This document shows, in pieces, positions 45,379 to 53,395 of a stretch of 64,000 nucleotides of DNA. This DNA comes from a virus. The notes under the pieces are model-generated. The model was not told the DNA's origin and did no database searches. It saw nothing but the letters and a program-made list of their open reading frames with translations. Within the stretch, counting starts at the first letter, position 1. Each line of letters begins with the position of its first letter. The stretch spans positions 1 through 64,000 of the IMG/VR virus record IMGVR_UViG_3300034418_011920; one strand, given 5' to 3'. A program made the translations under genes and the position numbers.

Positions 45379-45407
45379 ATTATAGTTTCTTTCAGCGTTG
45401 TTGTCAA
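45379..45407 (-). promoter_or_regulatory. Consensus sigma-70 promoter of ssb
   Basis: On the minus strand TTGACA (45402-45407) and TATAAT (45379-45384) are separated by exactly 17 nt, a perfect match to the housekeeping sigma-70 consensus. It lies directly after the stop of the polymerase C-terminal gene and about 78 nt before the ssb ATG. Confidence 0.88.
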
Positions 45408-45408
45408 G

Positions 45409-47010
45409 TCACGACTTCGCTAAAAACATTTTTTCAACTATAAGCCCATCTGTTCTAGATCTGTTACCTTTTACGATAACAATATTACCTTCAAATAAAG
45501 CATTCTTATATTCTCTATATTGATCTGGGAAGAAAATTACACTATCTATAGATCCCGTATTATCTTTCATAGTAACAAAAGCCATATGAGATCCTGGGTT
45601 TTTCCCCTGTTTGGTCTTAACTATTCCAATATAGTCAATTTCTCCACCAAGAATAATTCCGTCTTTTCTTTCGCTATGTTTAAAATCTTTACAATTAGTA
45701 TTACACATGCTTATATCATACATATCAATTTTCCCGCATGTAATAGCACAACCAAGCAAAGAATCTTCTGTGTCCGCAATCCATTCCGGTCCATCTTCCA
45801 GAGAAAATGGTGGTTTTTTAAGTGATTCTATCAGATTTTCTACAACAGATTTTCTATTCTTATTAATCTTAGAGTTCATATACAAATGATTTAAACATGA
45901 TAGAAGATCTTTTTGTGGACTCTCTAGAATAAACGCAAGTTCTTTCTTTGTCAGGTTTTGGATCAGACTATATTCAAACAACATAGCATTTCTTGTTTTC
46001 TTTAAATAAAACAAAGCACCAGATTGTATAAGTCCTTTTGCTGCTGTAGAATTGATATTAGGCAAAATCCTTAATAGTATATCAATCCATCCCGTTTCAT
46101 TAAGATCAAAATCTGATACAACCTTTGTGAGTTTATCAAAAACACTTTGACCAACACCTTTAATGTCTGTTAGTCCAAAATAGACTTTATTGTTTTTGAG
46201 AATGAAATACTTGTTCAGGTTTCTCAAATCCGGGGTTCTTACATCAATGTCCATCTCTATGGCATTTTGTACCAATTCTTTAATTTCTGCTTGGGGGTCT
46301 ATCTTGTCCTTGGCAAATCTTAAATATGATGCAAAAAATACCTTAGGGAAATGAGACTTAGCAAATGCAGATAAATAAGCATTAATAGCATAGCTAACAC
46401 TATGAGATTTATTAAAGCTGTATCTCTGGGACTTTTCAATCCACCCAAAGATTTGCTCCGCTTCGTCTGATGTTACAATGCCCAGTTTTTTGGAGCCCTT
46501 TATGAACTTCTTTTTAACCTTGGCCATCTCTTCAGGTTTCTTTTTACCAATCGCCTTACGAAGCCCGTCTGCTTCTTGTAGATTGAAACCAGCGATAACT
46601 TTGGCGATCTCCATTGCTTGTTCTTGATAGATCATTTCTCCGTATGTAGAGTTTAAAATCGGTTCTAATGAGGGATGGAAGTAATCAACAGATTCTTCTT
46701 TATTTTTTTTGTCGATATAGTGATTAGTAACGCTTTTCCCATCACGCATCGCTTCAAGACAACCCGGCCTAAGAATAGCAATAAGGGCAGAAAGTTGTTC
46801 AATATTTTCTGGTTTCAGCTTTTTTGCTGTTTGTTTTCCTAATCTAGACTCTAGCTGGAAAACACCCTTAGTATTTCCTTCCGAAATGAGATCCCATGTT
46901 CTTTGACATTCTAGATTTAGATTCTCAATTTCTGGTTCAAAAAATATTTTTGTAACACCGTTTTCTTGAATTGGGAATTTGCATCCACAACTGTATGTAA
47001 AATATTTCAT
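45409..47010 (-). CDS. dnaE: DNA polymerase III alpha, C-terminal half (split gene)
   Basis: The 533-residue protein matches the fingers-to-OB part of bacterial PolIII alpha. It starts just before the conserved TWDLISEGNTKGVFQLES (about residues 38-55). It continues through LRPGCLEAMRDGK, YQEQAM, the RYSFNKSHSVSYA block (196-208), a helix-hairpin-helix (YFGLTDIKGVG, about 277-287) and an OB-like domain (about 465-520). The N-terminus is a private CGC-containing extension (YSCGCKFPI). PHP and palm domains with the catalytic Asps are missing here and are encoded at 50496-52376. Its ATG overlaps the upstream stop (atga). It is transcribed with thyX from the promoter at 47900. Confidence 0.92.
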   Translation of the reverse strand: MKYFTYSCGCKFPIQENGVTKIFFEPEIENLNLECQRTWDLISEGNTKGVFQLESRLGKQTAKKLKPENIEQLSALIAILRPGCLEAMRDGKSVTNHYIDKKNKEESVDYFHPSLEPILNSTYGEMIYQEQAMEIAKVIAGFNLQEADGLRKAIGKKKPEEMAKVKKKFIKGSKKLGIVTSDEAEQIFGWIEKSQRYSFNKSHSVSYAINAYLSAFAKSHFPKVFFASYLRFAKDKIDPQAEIKELVQNAIEMDIDVRTPDLRNLNKYFILKNNKVYFGLTDIKGVGQSVFDKLTKVVSDFDLNETGWIDILLRILPNINSTAAKGLIQSGALFYLKKTRNAMLFEYSLIQNLTKKELAFILESPQKDLLSCLNHLYMNSKINKNRKSVVENLIESLKKPPFSLEDGPEWIADTEDSLLGCAITCGKIDMYDISMCNTNCKDFKHSERKDGIILGGEIDYIGIVKTKQGKNPGSHMAFVTMKDNTGSIDSVIFFPDQYREYKNALFEGNIVIVKGNRSRTDGLIVEKMFLAKS

Positions 47011-47183
47011 TCTTTGTATTCCAATTTGGGTATATGGTGATCTGTTCCGGGAAGTAAATCAACTATTTTGATAGATAAAATCTTATTATCTAATGATTCC
47101 CTTTTCTTATGCTTATCTATCATTTCTTGTATCTTCTTACAAAGATACGCGCAATCTGTTTGTGTGTCAAGCCTAACTATCAT
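47007..47183 (-). CDS. Small protein between thyX and dnaE C-half
   Basis: The 58-residue protein runs from the ATG at 47183 (a GTG at 47192 is also possible). It overlaps the end of thyX by 11 nt and the start of the polymerase C-half by 4 nt (atga), so all three are translationally linked. It has a helical, Lys-rich middle and a beta-like end. No family is recognised. The coupling suggests a replication accessory. Confidence 0.5.
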   Translation of the reverse strand: MIVRLDTQTDCAYLCKKIQEMIDKHKKRESLDNKILSIKIVDLLPGTDHHIPKLEYKE

Positions 47184-47835
47184 AAAGACCACAAAGCTCC
47201 CATGTTTTTAGAGTATATTCAAATGGATTTCCTTCTATATTATGAACTAAAGCAAGCATCTCTTGTGCAATTTCCCTAATCTCTTTTTGAGCATGTTCTG
47301 AGTTTCGTAGTTTCTGGAAGTTTGCAAAACTCCTCATGTTAAAACTAACGTCCGCTTGAATCTGACTGTTGTAAGTTTTAAAGAATCTTGCTGACTCTTT
47401 GGCTCTTTTTCTTCCAAGAGCATCTGTTAATTCTTCTACACATTGATGATATAAAGTATTACCTAGCTTGGTATATTCCTGTAGCTTATCTTGCCAATTA
47501 GAAGGCCAATCTGCTGGTAGATAATATTTGTCTTCTTTTAATTCTTTATAGCGGGCAGATTCTGCATTAAGGGAGCTAATACGATGTTTAAGTAAATGAA
47601 TATGACTAGCAATATCGCAATCAACAAGAAAGTGAACCATTCCTTTTTCAAACGGGGTTTCATGACCATTGCTCCATAGCATGTTTATAAGGTTTGGAAT
47701 TCTTTCCTTTTTTTCTGGCGTTAAATCACGACTAGTGCTCGTCCATGCAGAACAAGCAATAACTTCATCACTACCATAATATCCTAATAGTTCTACTTTA
47801 TTTTTCATTCCTTCTCCTGTAAAAGTAATGTGCAT
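47173..47835 (-). CDS. thyX: FAD-dependent thymidylate synthase
   Basis: The protein makes dTMP from dUMP using FAD, NAD(P)H and methylene-tetrahydrofolate. It has 220 residues from the first ATG, the usual family length. The ThyX signature is present as KHRISSLNAESARY (about residues 82-95), with Lys replacing the first Arg of the common RHR-x7-S. GHETPFEKGMVHF before it is also typical. Two starts are plausible: 47835 (aggag 7 nt upstream) and 47808 (aggag 5 nt upstream). The second matches the usual N-terminus better. It is the first gene after a strong promoter and feeds nucleotide supply with the ribonucleotide reductase and dNMP kinase. Confidence 0.93.
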   Translation of the reverse strand: MHITFTGEGMKNKVELLGYYGSDEVIACSAWTSTSRDLTPEKKERIPNLINMLWSNGHETPFEKGMVHFLVDCDIASHIHLLKHRISSLNAESARYKELKEDKYYLPADWPSNWQDKLQEYTKLGNTLYHQCVEELTDALGRKRAKESARFFKTYNSQIQADVSFNMRSFANFQKLRNSEHAQKEIREIAQEMLALVHNIEGNPFEYTLKTWELCGLYDS

Positions 47836-47899: not shown

Positions 47900-47927
47900 A
47901 GTATAGCACAAAAACATCGTTTGTCAA
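47900..47927 (-). promoter_or_regulatory. Strong sigma-70 promoter of thyX-dnaE(C)
   Basis: On the minus strand TTGACA (47922-47927), a 16-nt spacer and TATACT (47900-47905) lie 65 nt before the first thyX ATG. It sits just downstream of the terminator at 47939-47966. Transcription is therefore stopped and restarted here. Confidence 0.82.
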
Positions 47928-47938
47928 CCCCAAAAATA

Positions 47939-47966
47939 AAAGACCCCAGATTTTTCCAGGGTCTTT
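47939..47966 (-). terminator. Rho-independent terminator of the pseudopilin cassette
   Basis: An 8-bp stem aaagaccc / gggtcttt encloses a 12-nt loop. On the minus strand it is followed by tttattttt, so it can end the transcript of the DUF1559 cassette. The 293-nt region 47836-48128 thus holds this terminator, the thyX promoter and the 31-codon gene at 48034-48129. Confidence 0.8.
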
Positions 47967-48033
47967 ATTTCTATTTTGGGCCTTGTACTACATCGCGAAA
48001 GAATAGTAACTTTGCTTTATTTGTAATACATTT

Positions 48034-48129
48034 TTAATCTTTATTCATCCTCTCCCCTAAAATAATCATATATACTGCAATTACTGATAAGGGGAGAAGA
48101 TAGAATATAAAAAACAGGAATAATCCCAT
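48034..48129 (-). CDS. 31-aa single-TM peptide coupled to the pseudopilin gene
   Basis: The ATG overlaps the TAA of the DUF1559 gene (taatg), a classic coupling arrangement. The product starts [20 protein letters not shown], is hydrophobic through about residue 25 and ends in a short charged tail (GERMNKD). It is a probable inner-membrane peptide. It has no independent ribosome binding site. It ends about 70 nt before the terminator. It is too short for family assignment. A partner of the pseudopilin is an inference. Confidence 0.5.
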   Translation of the reverse strand: MGLFLFFIFYLLPLSVIAVYMIILGERMNKD

Positions 48130-49112
48130 TACTGTTGTGCTACTTCCCCTCCCGCACGGGTAATTAGTGCAGCGAATACTCTTAGATCAATATCCTCACT
48201 AACATAGGCAGTTGAACCATCTGTTCTGGTTACATTCATACCGCCAGGATGCCATGAAAATGCTTCGCCATTATTTGTCTTGTTCATGGGGTGGCCCATG
48301 TTTCTAGCAGCACCCTTATCACCATTGGCATCAATAGGATGAAGCTTGAACGGCCCAAGGCTATCTGCCCAACCAAGACACTGATTAATAACGTCTGGAA
48401 CAACCTGTGCTGGAGTACCCTTAACCCAAGTTGGCCTTGATGCACATTCTGCTACAAGAAAAGTCTTGCTTGTTCCATCTCTAAATTGACCCATAGTAGT
48501 AACACGGTCCTTAATCAAAGCACCATCTGCTTCTGGTCCCTTGTTAGCATATGGATCTGGATCAAGAACCTTATTCTTTACACCAGTAAATACCTCATAA
48601 TCTGTGCGACCAAAAGGTACACCAGTGTTTAGTGCTGGTGCAGTAGAGTCGCTGTCTCTTGATGGACCGTCTGGAAAACTTGTCCATTCTTCTCCATTAT
48701 AAGTATTAGAAGGACACTGGAATACCTTGACTTGCTGCTGTGCTACATAAAGGTTTTGACCCTGCCACCAATGTAAATTCTTATCATAATTATCTGCTAG
48801 TGCTGCCTCTTCCATGTATGGCAGAAGATCAACTCTCCATGATCTTTCTGTTCGTGCCTTATTATCAGCAGGAGCAATTGGGGTTACGGAAGGATCAATA
48901 GTATCAATAGTCCAACATGCTGCTGGAAACTTCTGAGTACCATTTTCAATATTATGTGCAGCCAATCCAAACTGACGCATATTGCTCATACAATTTGCTC
49001 GTCGTGCTGCTTCTCTGGCAGATTGTACTGCTGGTAAAAGAAGACCAACGAGAACACCGATAATAGCAATAACAACTAATAGTTCAACGAGAGTAAAACC
49101 TTTTCTATTCAT
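48129..49112 (-). CDS. DUF1559 pseudopilin-like protein (planctomycete type)
   Basis: The protein has 327 residues from the ATG at 49112 (aagga ribosome binding site); an upstream in-frame start at 49202 would add an unlikely 30 residues. The N-terminus [18 protein letters not shown] is a type IV prepilin signal: cleavage after Gly, Glu at +5, then one hydrophobic helix. It continues [17 protein letters not shown], exactly as in the DUF1559 family. The C-terminus has FSWHPGGMN...DGS and [19 protein letters not shown], the family's H...DG signature. These proteins exist in tens to hundreds of copies in planctomycete genomes, with unknown function at the cell envelope. Here it is probably a captured host gene. 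It has its own weak promoter and a terminator. Arg codons are more mixed than in neighbours. Confidence 0.93.
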
Positions 49113-49163
49113 AATTAATCCTTTTTTTAATGTTAGGTGGGTAAAACATAGCCTGTTAACGAT

Positions 49164-49191
49164 ATAATACTCAATCGGCAAGAAGATACAA
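49164..49191 (-). promoter_or_regulatory. Possible promoter of the pseudopilin cassette
   Basis: On the minus strand TTGTAT (49186-49191), a 16-nt spacer and TATTAT (49164-49169) lie in the 102-nt gap upstream of the DUF1559 start. The -10 matches 5 of 6 consensus positions and the -35 only 3 of 6, so this is a moderate candidate. Confidence 0.4.
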
Positions 49192-49214
49192 TCATATATC
49201 ATGTTAGAATTGTG

Positions 49215-49637
49215 TTAGGATTCAGGAAATTGCGATTCCAATTCATCTAGGGTTGGGTAATCAAATTCCCACGGTTTCCAGTTGATTTTAGAGGTAAAAT
49301 CTTTGACTAAAATAGTTTCTCCATCTAACACATATTGATAAGTTGCTGCGTATTGCTCTTCACCAACCATATCGTCTTTAATAATCTTGAAATTATTAGC
49401 TCCTTCTGGCAAAGAGAAAAATACTCTAGATCTGCCAATGTTAATACAAAATTCTTTTACTCTTTCATCATATTTGATAGGATAAAAAATATTCCGTATA
49501 GATCTTTCAACCACCGGAGCACGATTACCCCAATATTCTGGATTAAGCATAAAACCAATAGAAAATCCAGTCCATAATAGCAAGATTTGATATACAAGTG
49601 TTCTTGCTATTGTTTTTGCTACAAGTTTTTTACTCAT
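49215..49637 (-). CDS. Single-pass membrane protein, function unknown
   Basis: The 140-residue protein has a basic N-terminus, then one hydrophobic segment (TLVYQILLLWTGFSIGFML, about residues 13-31), then a soluble, beta-containing domain ending in acidic residues. Topology is probably N-in with the domain outside. It overlaps the exonuclease gene by 4 nt (atga) and precedes the pseudopilin gene. It could be an envelope protein altering the infected cell (exclusion, receptor masking). No family is recognised. Confidence 0.55.
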   Translation of the reverse strand: MSKKLVAKTIARTLVYQILLLWTGFSIGFMLNPEYWGNRAPVVERSIRNIFYPIKYDERVKEFCINIGRSRVFFSLPEGANNFKIIKDDMVGEEQYAATYQYVLDGETILVKDFTSKINWKPWEFDYPTLDELESQFPES

Positions 49638-50320
49638 TTAAAAGATCCCTTAAACTTAATTTTCTCAGAAAGATTTCTATGTAGTTTCATAAACCTAATA
49701 AGAATTTCTGCCGTATCTTTAACATCTTTAATCGCATCATGAGCACCATCTTTAGTGATCCCCATATAATCCCTTAGAGAATCTAAAGTATAACTTTTAA
49801 GCTCATTACTGTGATTGAACCAATAGAAAACTAGATTTAAGACGTCTGCAACATCCCTAGGAAAGAAAATATTAGAATTTCCTTCTTTATTAACATTCTT
49901 GTATTTCTTACTAAGTCTCTGTATAATTGGAAGATCAAATCTATAGATATTGTATCCAGAAGCAATTGGGGCAGAAAACTGCGATTTCTTTTTATTGCTT
50001 CTAGTATGATACTTTTCAAGATAGTCTACAAACATCTTCCATGCAATTTCTTGTTTTGGGTAGTTTTGCCATTCAGCATATACTTTGTCTTTAGAACATC
50101 CCTTAACTTTAGCATGAAAATCTAGAATATCTGTTTTATATTCATAGTTTGGGTCTTTTTCCATTGCTTCTGGTTTAAAATTACAGTTGAACTCTGAGTT
50201 CGGAATAATTTCCAAATTCAATGGATCTATCATGACGGCAGCAATTTGTACTGGACTACATTGCTCCGGATTAACTCCGTCCGTCTCAAAATCAAATACG
50301 CAAATTTTATTATAGTTCAT
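49634..50320 (-). CDS. DEDDh 3'-5' exonuclease (DnaQ-like)
   Basis: The 228-residue protein has the exonuclease motifs in order: FDFETDG (residues 9-15, catalytic Asp and Glu), GYNIYRFDLP (about 127-136, third Asp) and GAHDAIKDVKDTAEI (about 197-211, His and last Asp). Together they define the DEDDh class. Size fits a stand-alone DnaQ/epsilon proofreading subunit. It is encoded two genes downstream of the polymerase III alpha N-half with 4-nt overlaps, so proofreading for the split polymerase is the likely role. RNase T-type activity is an alternative. Confidence 0.9.
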   Translation of the reverse strand: MNYNKICVFDFETDGVNPEQCSPVQIAAVMIDPLNLEIIPNSEFNCNFKPEAMEKDPNYEYKTDILDFHAKVKGCSKDKVYAEWQNYPKQEIAWKMFVDYLEKYHTRSNKKKSQFSAPIASGYNIYRFDLPIIQRLSKKYKNVNKEGNSNIFFPRDVADVLNLVFYWFNHSNELKSYTLDSLRDYMGITKDGAHDAIKDVKDTAEILIRFMKLHRNLSEKIKFKGSFK

Positions 50321-50499
50321 TCAGATACCTCTACAATTTCTTGTGGTTTAACTCCAACTTTCTTGTTTGAATCAGAAACGCTAACCGCATTATTAAACTT
50401 ACAACAGTTTATCTTCACCTTCTCTGTTTTGGTCCACTCTTCTCCGTTATAGAGAAATTGACTTCCAACTGCCACAACGTCGAATTTAACTTCTTTCAT
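50317..50499 (-). CDS. Small conserved-looking phage protein
   Basis: The 60-residue protein carries F-x-x-x-x-x-G-x-x-F...W-x-K...NA, a pattern I recall from many short phage proteins of unknown role. It overlaps both neighbours by 4 nt (atga at each side) and sits between the polymerase N-half and the exonuclease. Its ATG overlapping the polymerase stop shows that the polymerase truly ends there. Confidence 0.6.
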   Translation of the reverse strand: MKEVKFDVVAVGSQFLYNGEEWTKTEKVKINCCKFNNAVSVSDSNKKVGVKPQEIVEVSE

Positions 50500-52376
50500 A
50501 TCTCTACTCCTTCTAATAGAATTTTTTGAATATTCATTACTTTGTCTAACATAGCAATACCAAGAATATCAAACTTAATAATACCAATAGCTTCCAAATC
50601 TTGCATTTCCATACCAGCAATCATCTGCTTATTTTTGTTGTCATAAACCATTGGACAACTTTCGTTTAGTGGTTCTGAACTAATAGCAATTCCAGCAGCA
50701 TGTTTTGATTGATTTGATTTTGTGCCCTCTAGTCTAATTGCTTGTTCAAATCTCTTCGATAGGGGACCATCCAAATTTCCCTTATCATCAATATAGCACC
50801 ATTCTTTGAGTTTGTCAACATTGTTTTCCAAGGCCCACCTAATGATAGAAGCTTCTCCTGTGTCCTCTTTCATCTGCTGTAATTCATCGGCAATCTTAGC
50901 TTCGTCAGGGATATTTTTGGTAATATTATTCATTTCTTCAAATGATATATTACCGTATACTCTCAACACATCTTTAAGAGCCCCACGCCCTTTAATGGTA
51001 TTAAAAGTAATCATCTGACTTACCTTATCTTCACCATATCTGCCTTTGATGTACTCGATAATATTTTCTCTTTTGTCGATTGGAACATCCACATCAATAT
51101 CTGGCATAGAAATATGATCGGCAGTATTACGACCAGCGTTATAAAAACGATCGAACAAAAGATTGTACTTAATAGGGTCGATGCTTGTAATTCCAATAAG
51201 ATACGACACCAGACACCCAGCGGCAGATCCTCTTCCCGGTCCTGGCAACCATTTTTCTTCTCTAACATGATTCACAATATCCTGTACAATAAGGAAGTAA
51301 CTAGAAAGGTCTGCTCCTTGTAGAACGCTAAGTTCATATTTGATTCGATCAGTATATGTTGGATGTAGTGTTTTGTCAACTTTATTGTTGATTTTATCAC
51401 GCCAACCATTTCTACAAAGCTGTCTAAGATATTCATCTGGGTTGTATCCGTCTGGACATTTGAAAGGTGGGAGTTTGGGTTTGCTTAGAATATCATATTC
51501 TTCAATCATATCATTAACAAGATTTGTATTAGCGATATGCTCTTCTGGATGAAGTGCAGTTATTTCTTCTTGTGATAAAATATGATAGTTATCAGAAGAG
51601 AAGAAACATTCCATTGGTACTTTATCACTAGTTCCCAGCTTTCTATTGATTTCTGGAAATGTTGTTTTTAGATTGTTGCAGAGAAGAATTCTCTGATCTA
51701 CAGCGTCCGCTTTTCGTGCATAATGAGCGTCTGGAGTACAGATAGTTTTAACGCCAGTTTTTTGGGCAATATCTATAGTTGCTTCTGATAGTTCTTTTTG
51801 GATTGGCATATTTTCCATATCCATTAGTTGAGATTCAAGAAAAACATTTTCTTTGCCAAAAGCATCTTTTAGTCTATTCACATAGGCCACTCCAACATTT
51901 GAATAGTCACTAATAATTTTATCCTCTCTACAAATTGCATTAGAAAGGGTAGAGCCAAGATGACCAGTAATACAGATAAAATTGTTCTTAACGAAATTTG
52001 AAAGTGTTTCAAGATCGAGCCTCGGCTTATGGTAGTAATGTTCGGGTTTGTTAGATTCGCTCACAATTCTGATAAGATCGAGCCATCCTTGATGGTTCTT
52101 TGCGAGAATAAGCATATGGGAGAGTTTGCTGTTCTCTTTTTCCTTTAATGTTGGATTTTCTTCACAAATATAGAGTTCGCATCCAAGTATAGGTTTGATC
52201 CCATTCTTTTTCATCGTGGAATAAAATTTAACAGCACCAGCGATATTACCGTGATCTGTCAAGGCACATGCCGGAGATTCTATCTGATTGATTCTATTTG
52301 CAATTTGCTCTGGTCTACTGAGTCCATCCAATAGGCTGTAGTGACTGTGACAATGTAGTGGAATATATTTGTTCAT
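50496..52376 (-). CDS. dnaE: DNA polymerase III alpha, N-terminal half (split gene)
   Basis: The 626-residue protein comprises the PHP domain and palm of bacterial PolIII alpha. The PHP metal ligands look intact: HCHSHYS (residues 8-14), DHGN (41-44), GCE (65-67), GH (138-139) and DAH (216-218). The palm has GPGRGSAAG (379-387), PDIDVD (425-430, two catalytic Asps) and KFDILG (601-606, third Asp). It stops about 20 residues later, where normal DnaE continues into the fingers. The remainder is the gene at 45409-47010. Both ends overlap neighbours by 4 nt, so the truncation is not a recent frameshift. The two proteins probably assemble into one replicase. Confidence 0.93.
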   Translation of the reverse strand: MNKYIPLHCHSHYSLLDGLSRPEQIANRINQIESPACALTDHGNIAGAVKFYSTMKKNGIKPILGCELYICEENPTLKEKENSKLSHMLILAKNHQGWLDLIRIVSESNKPEHYYHKPRLDLETLSNFVKNNFICITGHLGSTLSNAICREDKIISDYSNVGVAYVNRLKDAFGKENVFLESQLMDMENMPIQKELSEATIDIAQKTGVKTICTPDAHYARKADAVDQRILLCNNLKTTFPEINRKLGTSDKVPMECFFSSDNYHILSQEEITALHPEEHIANTNLVNDMIEEYDILSKPKLPPFKCPDGYNPDEYLRQLCRNGWRDKINNKVDKTLHPTYTDRIKYELSVLQGADLSSYFLIVQDIVNHVREEKWLPGPGRGSAAGCLVSYLIGITSIDPIKYNLLFDRFYNAGRNTADHISMPDIDVDVPIDKRENIIEYIKGRYGEDKVSQMITFNTIKGRGALKDVLRVYGNISFEEMNNITKNIPDEAKIADELQQMKEDTGEASIIRWALENNVDKLKEWCYIDDKGNLDGPLSKRFEQAIRLEGTKSNQSKHAAGIAISSEPLNESCPMVYDNKNKQMIAGMEMQDLEAIGIIKFDILGIAMLDKVMNIQKILLEGVEI

Positions 52377-53395
52377 TCGGTGCTTCCTGGCGGTTTGTAC
52401 TTTCCAACATTATAGCCTGGGACAGTGTACTTGTCAATGGTTGTGTCTATTCCGGCAACCTCAATAGCGTGTCGGATTTGTTCACACATAGTCATTGGGG
52501 TTCCTTTATCACATATCTGATGATCTCTATATTCTGTTATTGGTTCATCAAAAAAGCTTTTACCAAAATGACATAATTTCGTACATTTCCAACTTCTGTT
52601 GAGTCTTGGTCTTTTGCAGTTTTTTATTGTTTCAAATTTTCTTCTGATCATATTTTCCGTTTCAATCAAATCTTCTTTATGATAGCACATACTAAAAATA
52701 CCACCATCATTAATAAAATATATGCTTACAATAATGTGATCTATTTCTGGATAAAGGACACTAGCAGCATAGTGATACATCCTAAGTTGTGGGTCTTTTT
52801 GCAATTTGCCGAAAGTTTTCTCTTCTCCTGTGGCCCAATCTAGCCTTCTGCCAGTTTTATAGTCAATGATTTCTAGAGTATTCTTATTTGGTTGGGCTAT
52901 GAGGTCTATAGTTCCTTTTATCGCCAAATAACCTTCTAAGTCTTCACTGTATTTATAGTAAGCCCAAGGTTTTTTAATTTCAATATCAAATCTTTGTTCT
53001 GGCTGAATGATCTTTTGATTTCTTGGATCAAAATTTCCATTTTGGATAGTAATGGCTTTATTTACCCATTGCTTGCAATGTTTTAGGTCGAGAGGTTTCC
53101 AGTTGTGATGTGTAAATCTACTAGTATAATATTCATATACTATTTCTGTAATTCTTTCAACATCATGATCTATGGTTGATATTTCCCCACATATATCATC
53201 ATTTATATGAATTTCACCCTTTGACATTGCTACAGAAATATCCGCAAGCGTTTCCATAACCTTGTGTACTATTGTGCCTTTATCCGCCTTTTGATTAGAA
53301 GGACTACGAATTCCGAGATTATACTCGATAAAGTATTGCTGCTCACACATAGAATGAGTACCATAACTAGAACTTCTCAAATATGTAATAATCAT
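52373..53395 (-). CDS. RecB/Cas4-family PD-(D/E)XK nuclease
   Basis: The 340-residue protein has KGTIVHKVME (about residues 39-48) with the conserved His. It then has GTIDLI...LEIIDYKTG with the catalytic D...E/D-x-K, and DPQLRMYHYA with the family Gln-x-x-x-Tyr motif. Cys17 and late cysteines near 271, 275, 295 and 304 could hold a 4Fe-4S cluster, as in Cas4/AddB. It is probably a 5'-3' exonuclease generating ssDNA for recombination with the RecA-like and annealing proteins. 4-nt overlaps on both sides place it in the replication operon. Confidence 0.85.
   Translation of the reverse strand: MIITYLRSSSYGTHSMCEQQYFIEYNLGIRSPSNQKADKGTIVHKVMETLADISVAMSKGEIHINDDICGEISTIDHDVERITEIVYEYYTSRFTHHNWKPLDLKHCKQWVNKAITIQNGNFDPRNQKIIQPEQRFDIEIKKPWAYYKYSEDLEGYLAIKGTIDLIAQPNKNTLEIIDYKTGRRLDWATGEEKTFGKLQKDPQLRMYHYAASVLYPEIDHIIVSIYFINDGGIFSMCYHKEDLIETENMIRRKFETIKNCKRPRLNRSWKCTKLCHFGKSFFDEPITEYRDHQICDKGTPMTMCEQIRHAIEVAGIDTTIDKYTVPGYNVGKYKPPGSTE

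Follow-up and report, generated by a model that had tools for sequence, protein, structure and literature searches.

Phage use of host nutrient sensing has been described in cyanophages: in P-SSM2, S-SM1, and S-PM2d, pstS and other genes are PhoBR-controlled, and in some cyanophages pstS also adjoins the DNA polymerase gene; not every Pho box predicted in a phage is functional (PMC10976474). A second relevant arrangement is the moron of temperate phages such as DLP4 (PMC6469090), which brings its own promoter, gene, and terminator, sits among operon genes, is absent from relatives, and is horizontally acquired. The third is the DUF1559 family (PF07596, SBP_bac_10) of Planctomycetota; in Planctopirus it is the biggest paralogue group, with 68 copies, two of them essential, and Rhodopirellula has 74 DUF1559 genes, with responses to salt, cold, and heat reported. 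We found no literature link of DUF1559 to phosphate, and none of the open-access DUF1559 papers, as judged from titles and passages, concerned phages.

In the 64,000-nt viral sequence analyzed here (the window; the IMG/VR record behind it spans 65,668 bp, or 65.7 kb), a DUF1559 gene lies in a compact unit comparable with each of these systems. Like cyanophage pstS, it is an accessory phage gene predicted to be under the host phosphate regulator, and it too lies by a DNA polymerase gene; the host phylum and the phages are different, however, the product is a DUF1559 pseudopilin rather than a phosphate-binding protein, and the gene belongs to a mobile unit with fixed promoter architecture, for which PhoB control is a prediction. 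The unit shares the moron features listed above, whereas its carriers, in which no lysogeny was noticed, are large phages encoding replication genes of their own, its place is the replication operon, and its promoter resembles a host stress-regulon site. With the Planctomycetota paralogues, the phage proteins share the prepilin signal, the domain, and an H-X9-DG motif, but members of the main phage group share 50-97% identity with the window protein and no more than 48% with cellular copies, and the phage copies are mostly driven from a conserved box while the best-matching host copies are not. Type II/IV pseudopilins (GspG, PilA) have the same N-terminal helix and cleavage motif and differ from the phage protein in the head, which here comprises ~265 residues. 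What is new is the promoter, a switch resembling that of the host phosphate regulon; this regulatory link had escaped an earlier reading of the window (the preliminary description).

On its plus strand the window carries genes of structural type; a collagen-like repeat protein resembling a tail fiber is encoded at 504-2555. The replication operon, including every feature described below, runs on the minus strand. The unit occupies a slot bordered on the left by an exonuclease gene (49634..50320; PF00929) and on the right by the C-terminal half of DnaE (45409..47010; PF17657), with the N-terminal half of DnaE (PHP + NTPase; PF02811, PF07733) at 50496..52376. Besides the unit, the slot holds a gene for a 140-aa TM protein (49215..49637), which lies 5' of the DUF1559 gene, has a stop codon overlapping the promoter box, and had no match among deposited phages; ThyX (47173..47835; PF02511); and a 61-aa ORF. 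GC content is 0.413 in 48001-49000, compared with 0.32-0.35 on both flanks. Elsewhere on the minus strand, perfect TTGACA-17-TATAAT matches stand 5' of the DnaE N-terminal half (52409-52437) and 5' of SSB (45379-45407).

The DUF1559 assignment is firm on sequence grounds. The gene (48129..49112) encodes 327 aa that match PF07596 over residues 30-310 and profile positions 1-267 of 268 (E = 8.6e-43; 147.7 bits against a cutoff of 23.3), and PF07963 (N_methyl; E = 3.6e-8) and TIGR02532 both exceed their cutoffs. The mechanical ORF begins further 5', at 49202; the prepilin start is the ATG at 49112, from which a short basic leader, the motif GFTLxE (with cleavage after the G), and a hydrophobic helix can be read. 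The H-X9-DG motif corresponds to H288...D298 G299, its H and D being invariant across 45 sequences; TIGR04294 is over its cutoff in the L010 and L012 proteins (L numbers are our handles for related records and loci), the window protein not being among its matches. An AlphaFold2 model built from the 45 sequences (pLDDT 90, pTM 0.85), which replaced a discarded model from 22 sequences (pLDDT 37), has a pilin-type helix of 52 residues (8-59) and a mixed head. When it was compared with the PDB by Foldseek, pilin helices ranked best, though no hit reached E ≤ 0.001, and the head matched no known fold and no solved pilin head in that search. The solute-binding (PstS-like) role implied by the Pfam name SBP_bac_10 was rejected, since Foldseek found no such fold in the PDB, and a leucine-binding protein match at E = 7 was set aside as chance. 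A phosphorus role of the DUF1559 protein itself, as far as the modeled head can speak to it, is thus unsupported. Deposited phages contained no relative of the protein, and the cassette matched them over just 54 bases.

Downstream, a 31-aa one-TM peptide (48034..48129) begins inside the DUF1559 stop codon (TAATG, at 48129) and appears translationally coupled to it; L002 and L003 encode it at 94% identity, and L006 has a similar coupled TM peptide. In L147, L156, L158, and L160, small TM proteins of 61-75 aa are coupled to or overlap the 3' end of the pilin gene; they have no obvious homology to the 31-aa peptide, so that it is the pairing with a pilin that recurs. The peptide gene is followed by an intrinsic terminator (47939..47966; 12-bp stem and T-run), and the hairpin recurs 3' of the peptide in L002 and L003. 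Immediately after it, pointing toward ThyX and the DnaE C-terminal half, lies a TG-extended sigma70-like promoter, TTGACA-16-TATACT (47900..47927), a consensus match only, at 11 of 12 positions; by eye, L002 and L003 have TTGACA-type promoters at the equivalent place. The prepilin signal, the coupled peptide, and the terminator had all been noted in the preliminary description and were borne out; the promoter, which it had called possible, proved stronger than that and extends to 49218, past the 49191 end that it had given.

Upstream of the pilin gene, phage sequences are mostly unalignable save for one element, CTAACA-N5-CTAACA (or TTAACA) followed after 21/22 or 32/33 nt by TATAAT/TATTAT. 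In the window, this element consists of the Pho-box-like activator site CTAACACAATTCTAACA (49202..49218), with two CTAACA half-sites at an 11-bp period, and, 32 nt after it, the -10 element TATTAT (49164..49169) in a conserved TGCCG...GTATWAT context; the promoter lies 52-106 nt 5' of the gene. The box was found in 23 of 26 nonredundant phage DUF1559 copies from at least three gene neighborhoods, and although these copies are related and the counts therefore nonindependent, their flanks have diverged and their neighborhoods differ. All 23 box-bearing phages keep the spacing of 21/22 or 32/33 nt, and these two classes are one helical turn apart, as expected for an activator that touches the polymerase. 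Shuffled sequences contained the box at a rate of 0.28% and the box with a -10 element in 0 of 7800 cases. The box is the sole strict match in the 65.7-kb window record; eight of 10 carrier records have it, one copy each, every match being 5' of the pilin, while 20 noncarrier records gave two stray matches, one of them within a reading frame. In the phage loci examined, all 19 repeat pairs accompanied by a -10 element and a gene start precede a pilin.

Direct repeats with an 11-bp period are typical of PhoB/OmpR-type regulators, including E. coli PhoB, B. subtilis PhoP, and cyanobacterial PhoB. We compared the phage box with planctomycete pstS upstream regions by spacing: in 70 of these, YT[AC]AC pairs occurred 14 times at 11 bp, five times at 22 bp, and five times at 33 bp, against 0-3 at other distances, while 30 recA upstream regions had none at 11 bp on the sense strand. 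Scored with the phage matrix, 13 pstS upstream regions exceeded 8 at a spacing of 11, compared with 0-4 at the other spacings from 6 to 18. The spacing test was used because the single-site matrix score, tried as proof of a Pho box, was too noisy against recA (p < 0.05 in 20 of 70 pstS regions, or nine on the other strand, versus four and seven of 30 recA regions). In an unbiased search of 30 host genomes, triple 11-bp arrays preceded genes for a phosphate porin (Porin_O_P), PiT (PHO4), and PhoU; backward control patterns also matched, roughly 20 versus 33, so that single arrays are uncertain and the identity of the downstream gene is the evidence. Together, the pstS spacing and the arrays at phosphate genes make the phage box most likely a Pho box, predicted to bind PhoB: its 11-bp direct repeats match planctomycete pst promoters.

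Four loci, forming two orthologous pairs, have triple arrays ahead of host DUF1559 genes, and in a further case the array precedes a lipoprotein gene followed by DUF1559. These array-linked loci (L332, L333, L336, L344, and L340) are candidate members of the Pho regulon, to which some host DUF1559 genes probably belong, judging by these motifs. Essentially no box stands upstream of the nearest host DUF1559 gene (L181) or of the 29 best host homologues, and a strict box pattern, which was too strict for the purpose, gave no match in 15 host genomes.

It is quite unlikely, in our judgment, that the box instead serves another OmpR-family regulator or a regulator of the phage, which would leave a regulated moron responding to some other signal. 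Such a reading would accommodate the general occurrence of 11-bp direct repeats at OmpR/PhoB-type sites and the lack of a box at pstS in the genome of L181, which need not be the phage's host; but the half-site letters and the 11/22/33 spacing fit planctomycete pstS and not recA, and the unbiased arrays precede phosphate-related genes.

The preliminary description placed the unit correctly between the DnaE halves. In most relatives (DnaE N-terminal halves about 50-74% identical), the exonuclease abuts the DnaE C-terminal half, which indicates that the split of DnaE is ancestral in this phage family and was not caused by the cassette. Only near relatives (L003, L004, L005, L006, L007, and L009) have a pilin in this slot, and its filling varies: L003 and L006 have a methyltransferase-like ORF ahead of the pilin, L004 has a DUF1501 protein there, and in L109 the slot contains the TM protein and a 191-aa ORF, the pilin being absent. 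A DUF1559 gene of any kind was found in one of 50 other family records, at another site far from DnaE; many of these records are fragments, so that absence is only partly informative.

Exchange between phages is indicated by L002 and by a contrast in dS. Although the DnaE N-terminal half of L002 is just about 50% identical to that of the window and the gene order differs, its pilin is 97%, its peptide 94%, and its ThyX 92% identical, and the conserved block stops at the terminator 3' of the peptide. Pilin dS is 0.33-0.43 overall and 0.35-0.43 when the window is compared with L003 or L007; the latter comparisons give 1.8 and 2.8 for the DnaE N-terminal half and 2.0 or saturation for the exonuclease. 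ThyX, 95% identical in L003 and with a dS of 0.6-0.7, accompanies the cassette in some phages, to go by these sequences. Pilin dN/dS is 0.06-0.14, pointing to purifying selection on the DUF1559 gene; this value, together with the absence of box and -10 element from the shuffles, excludes chance. The proposal in the preliminary description of a moron-like promoter-gene-terminator unit agrees with these data, and conservation at the same site, which it had named as counterevidence, was not seen in the wider phage family. It is very improbable that the pilin gene simply sits midway in the replication operon like any other, long resident in the phage lineage without separate control: all close relatives share the slot and the gene turns up repeatedly in that operon, but against this stand the box, the -10 element, the terminator, and the restart promoter, its absence from the wider family, and a dS far under that of its neighbors.

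The unit is found at other sites as well, where the copies are more distant (~50-55% identical). In five phages, and probably a sixth (L167, cut at its contig end), the pilin lies in the replication operon between a RecA-like and an endonuclease-like gene, the homologues of which overlap in the window; at about 13 loci it adjoins rIIA/rIIB-like genes. This last neighborhood, the predicted envelope location of the protein with its coupled TM peptide, and the exchange of the gene between phages would also suit a surface-exclusion moron, in which pseudopilin and TM partner modify or shield pilus-like structures of the host and so keep other phages from adsorbing or delivering their DNA, the starvation regulator just setting the timing. 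We consider this unlikely: no exclusion gene with a DUF1559 head domain turned up, phosphate genes have promoters of this kind, and classical exclusion morons would be expected with lysogeny, of which no sign was noticed in the window.

In the tree including host copies, which the preliminary description had called for, the main phage group includes the host gene L181, L179 is a separate acquisition, and a single phage-only clade was mildly rejected (AU p = 0.02), L181 nesting inside. L012 carries a second, unrelated DUF1559 gene between dNMP kinase and RecB-like genes, and in the 171-kb phage a second copy of another lineage, lacking the box, is located in the replication operon (L425:4227-5297, minus strand). 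Further viral contigs bear more divergent DUF1559 genes, and host contamination may account for some of these contigs.

Every cellular homologue found belongs to Planctomycetota, in keeping with the planctomycete origin put forward earlier, and the host is likely, on this and the following indirect evidence, a planctomycete. Planctomycete-type DUF1501 genes occur at L002:10512-11783 and at L004:8617-9888, the latter immediately preceding the pilin within the slot, and L012:2923-6688 has DUF1501 and PSCyt1/PSCyt2/PSD1 genes of planctomycete type. DUF1501 was present in 13 of 25 other pilin-carrying records tested and in three of 20 without a pilin; the window record has none.

We propose, as a reading that we hold to be rather probable, that this is a self-contained, mobile accessory unit, a moron in layout and an auxiliary gene in use, through which the phage produces a host-type DUF1559 pseudopilin while its planctomycete host is starved of phosphate. 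The sequences show its order, namely Pho-box-like site, -10 element, DUF1559 gene, coupled TM peptide, terminator, and a promoter-like site able to restart the replication operon, and they show that it moves between phages and occupies several slots, repeatedly in that operon. By motif identity, activated host PhoB would bind the direct repeats and recruit RNA polymerase, so that the gene would be on whenever the host Pho regulon is on, independent of the phage's own program. The product would enter the inner membrane, be cut by host prepilin peptidase after the KG of KGFTLVE, and join a pilus-like or type II-secretion-like surface machinery of the host, where it might replace or boost host DUF1559 proteins after host shut-off; no peptidase gene was noticed among the window ORFs. 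More speculatively, the phage may gain continued phosphorus scavenging during infection (e.g., by phosphatase secretion or display), as proposed for cyanophage PstS. The regulation of the unit is well supported as a sequence-based prediction; its benefit to the phage we infer by analogy. A use of the pilin-like helix in the virion or tail is hardly credible: pilin-like helices are known in filamentous structures, but the gene lies in the replication operon apart from the structural genes, the prepilin signal would target the host membrane, and the host family members are cellular. The earlier interpretation is partly supported: the data agree with its moron-like unit of planctomycete origin, whereas the promoter points to the host phosphate-starvation regulon instead of the altered host surface (exclusion, receptor masking) that it put forward as a possibility.

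The broader generalization, to which we give slightly less than even credence, is that planctomycete phages run a DUF1559 pseudopilin from a host phosphate-starvation promoter as a widespread exchangeable unit, often within the replication operon. DUF1559 proteins have no established function, and a phage copy under strong selection and behind a phosphate-type switch offers a testable hint; if true, DUF1559 would be tied to phosphorus acquisition in the hosts too, and phage use of host nutrient sensing would extend past cyanophages. A candidate Pho box for Planctomycetota also emerges from the comparison.

The DnaE genes of several relatives are interrupted by inserts of ~0.9-1.2 kb (L004:12743-13666, L065, L072, L077, L102, L125, and L139), as are the RecB-like genes of L125 and L139; these inserts are probably inteins or introns with homing-endonuclease-like ORFs.
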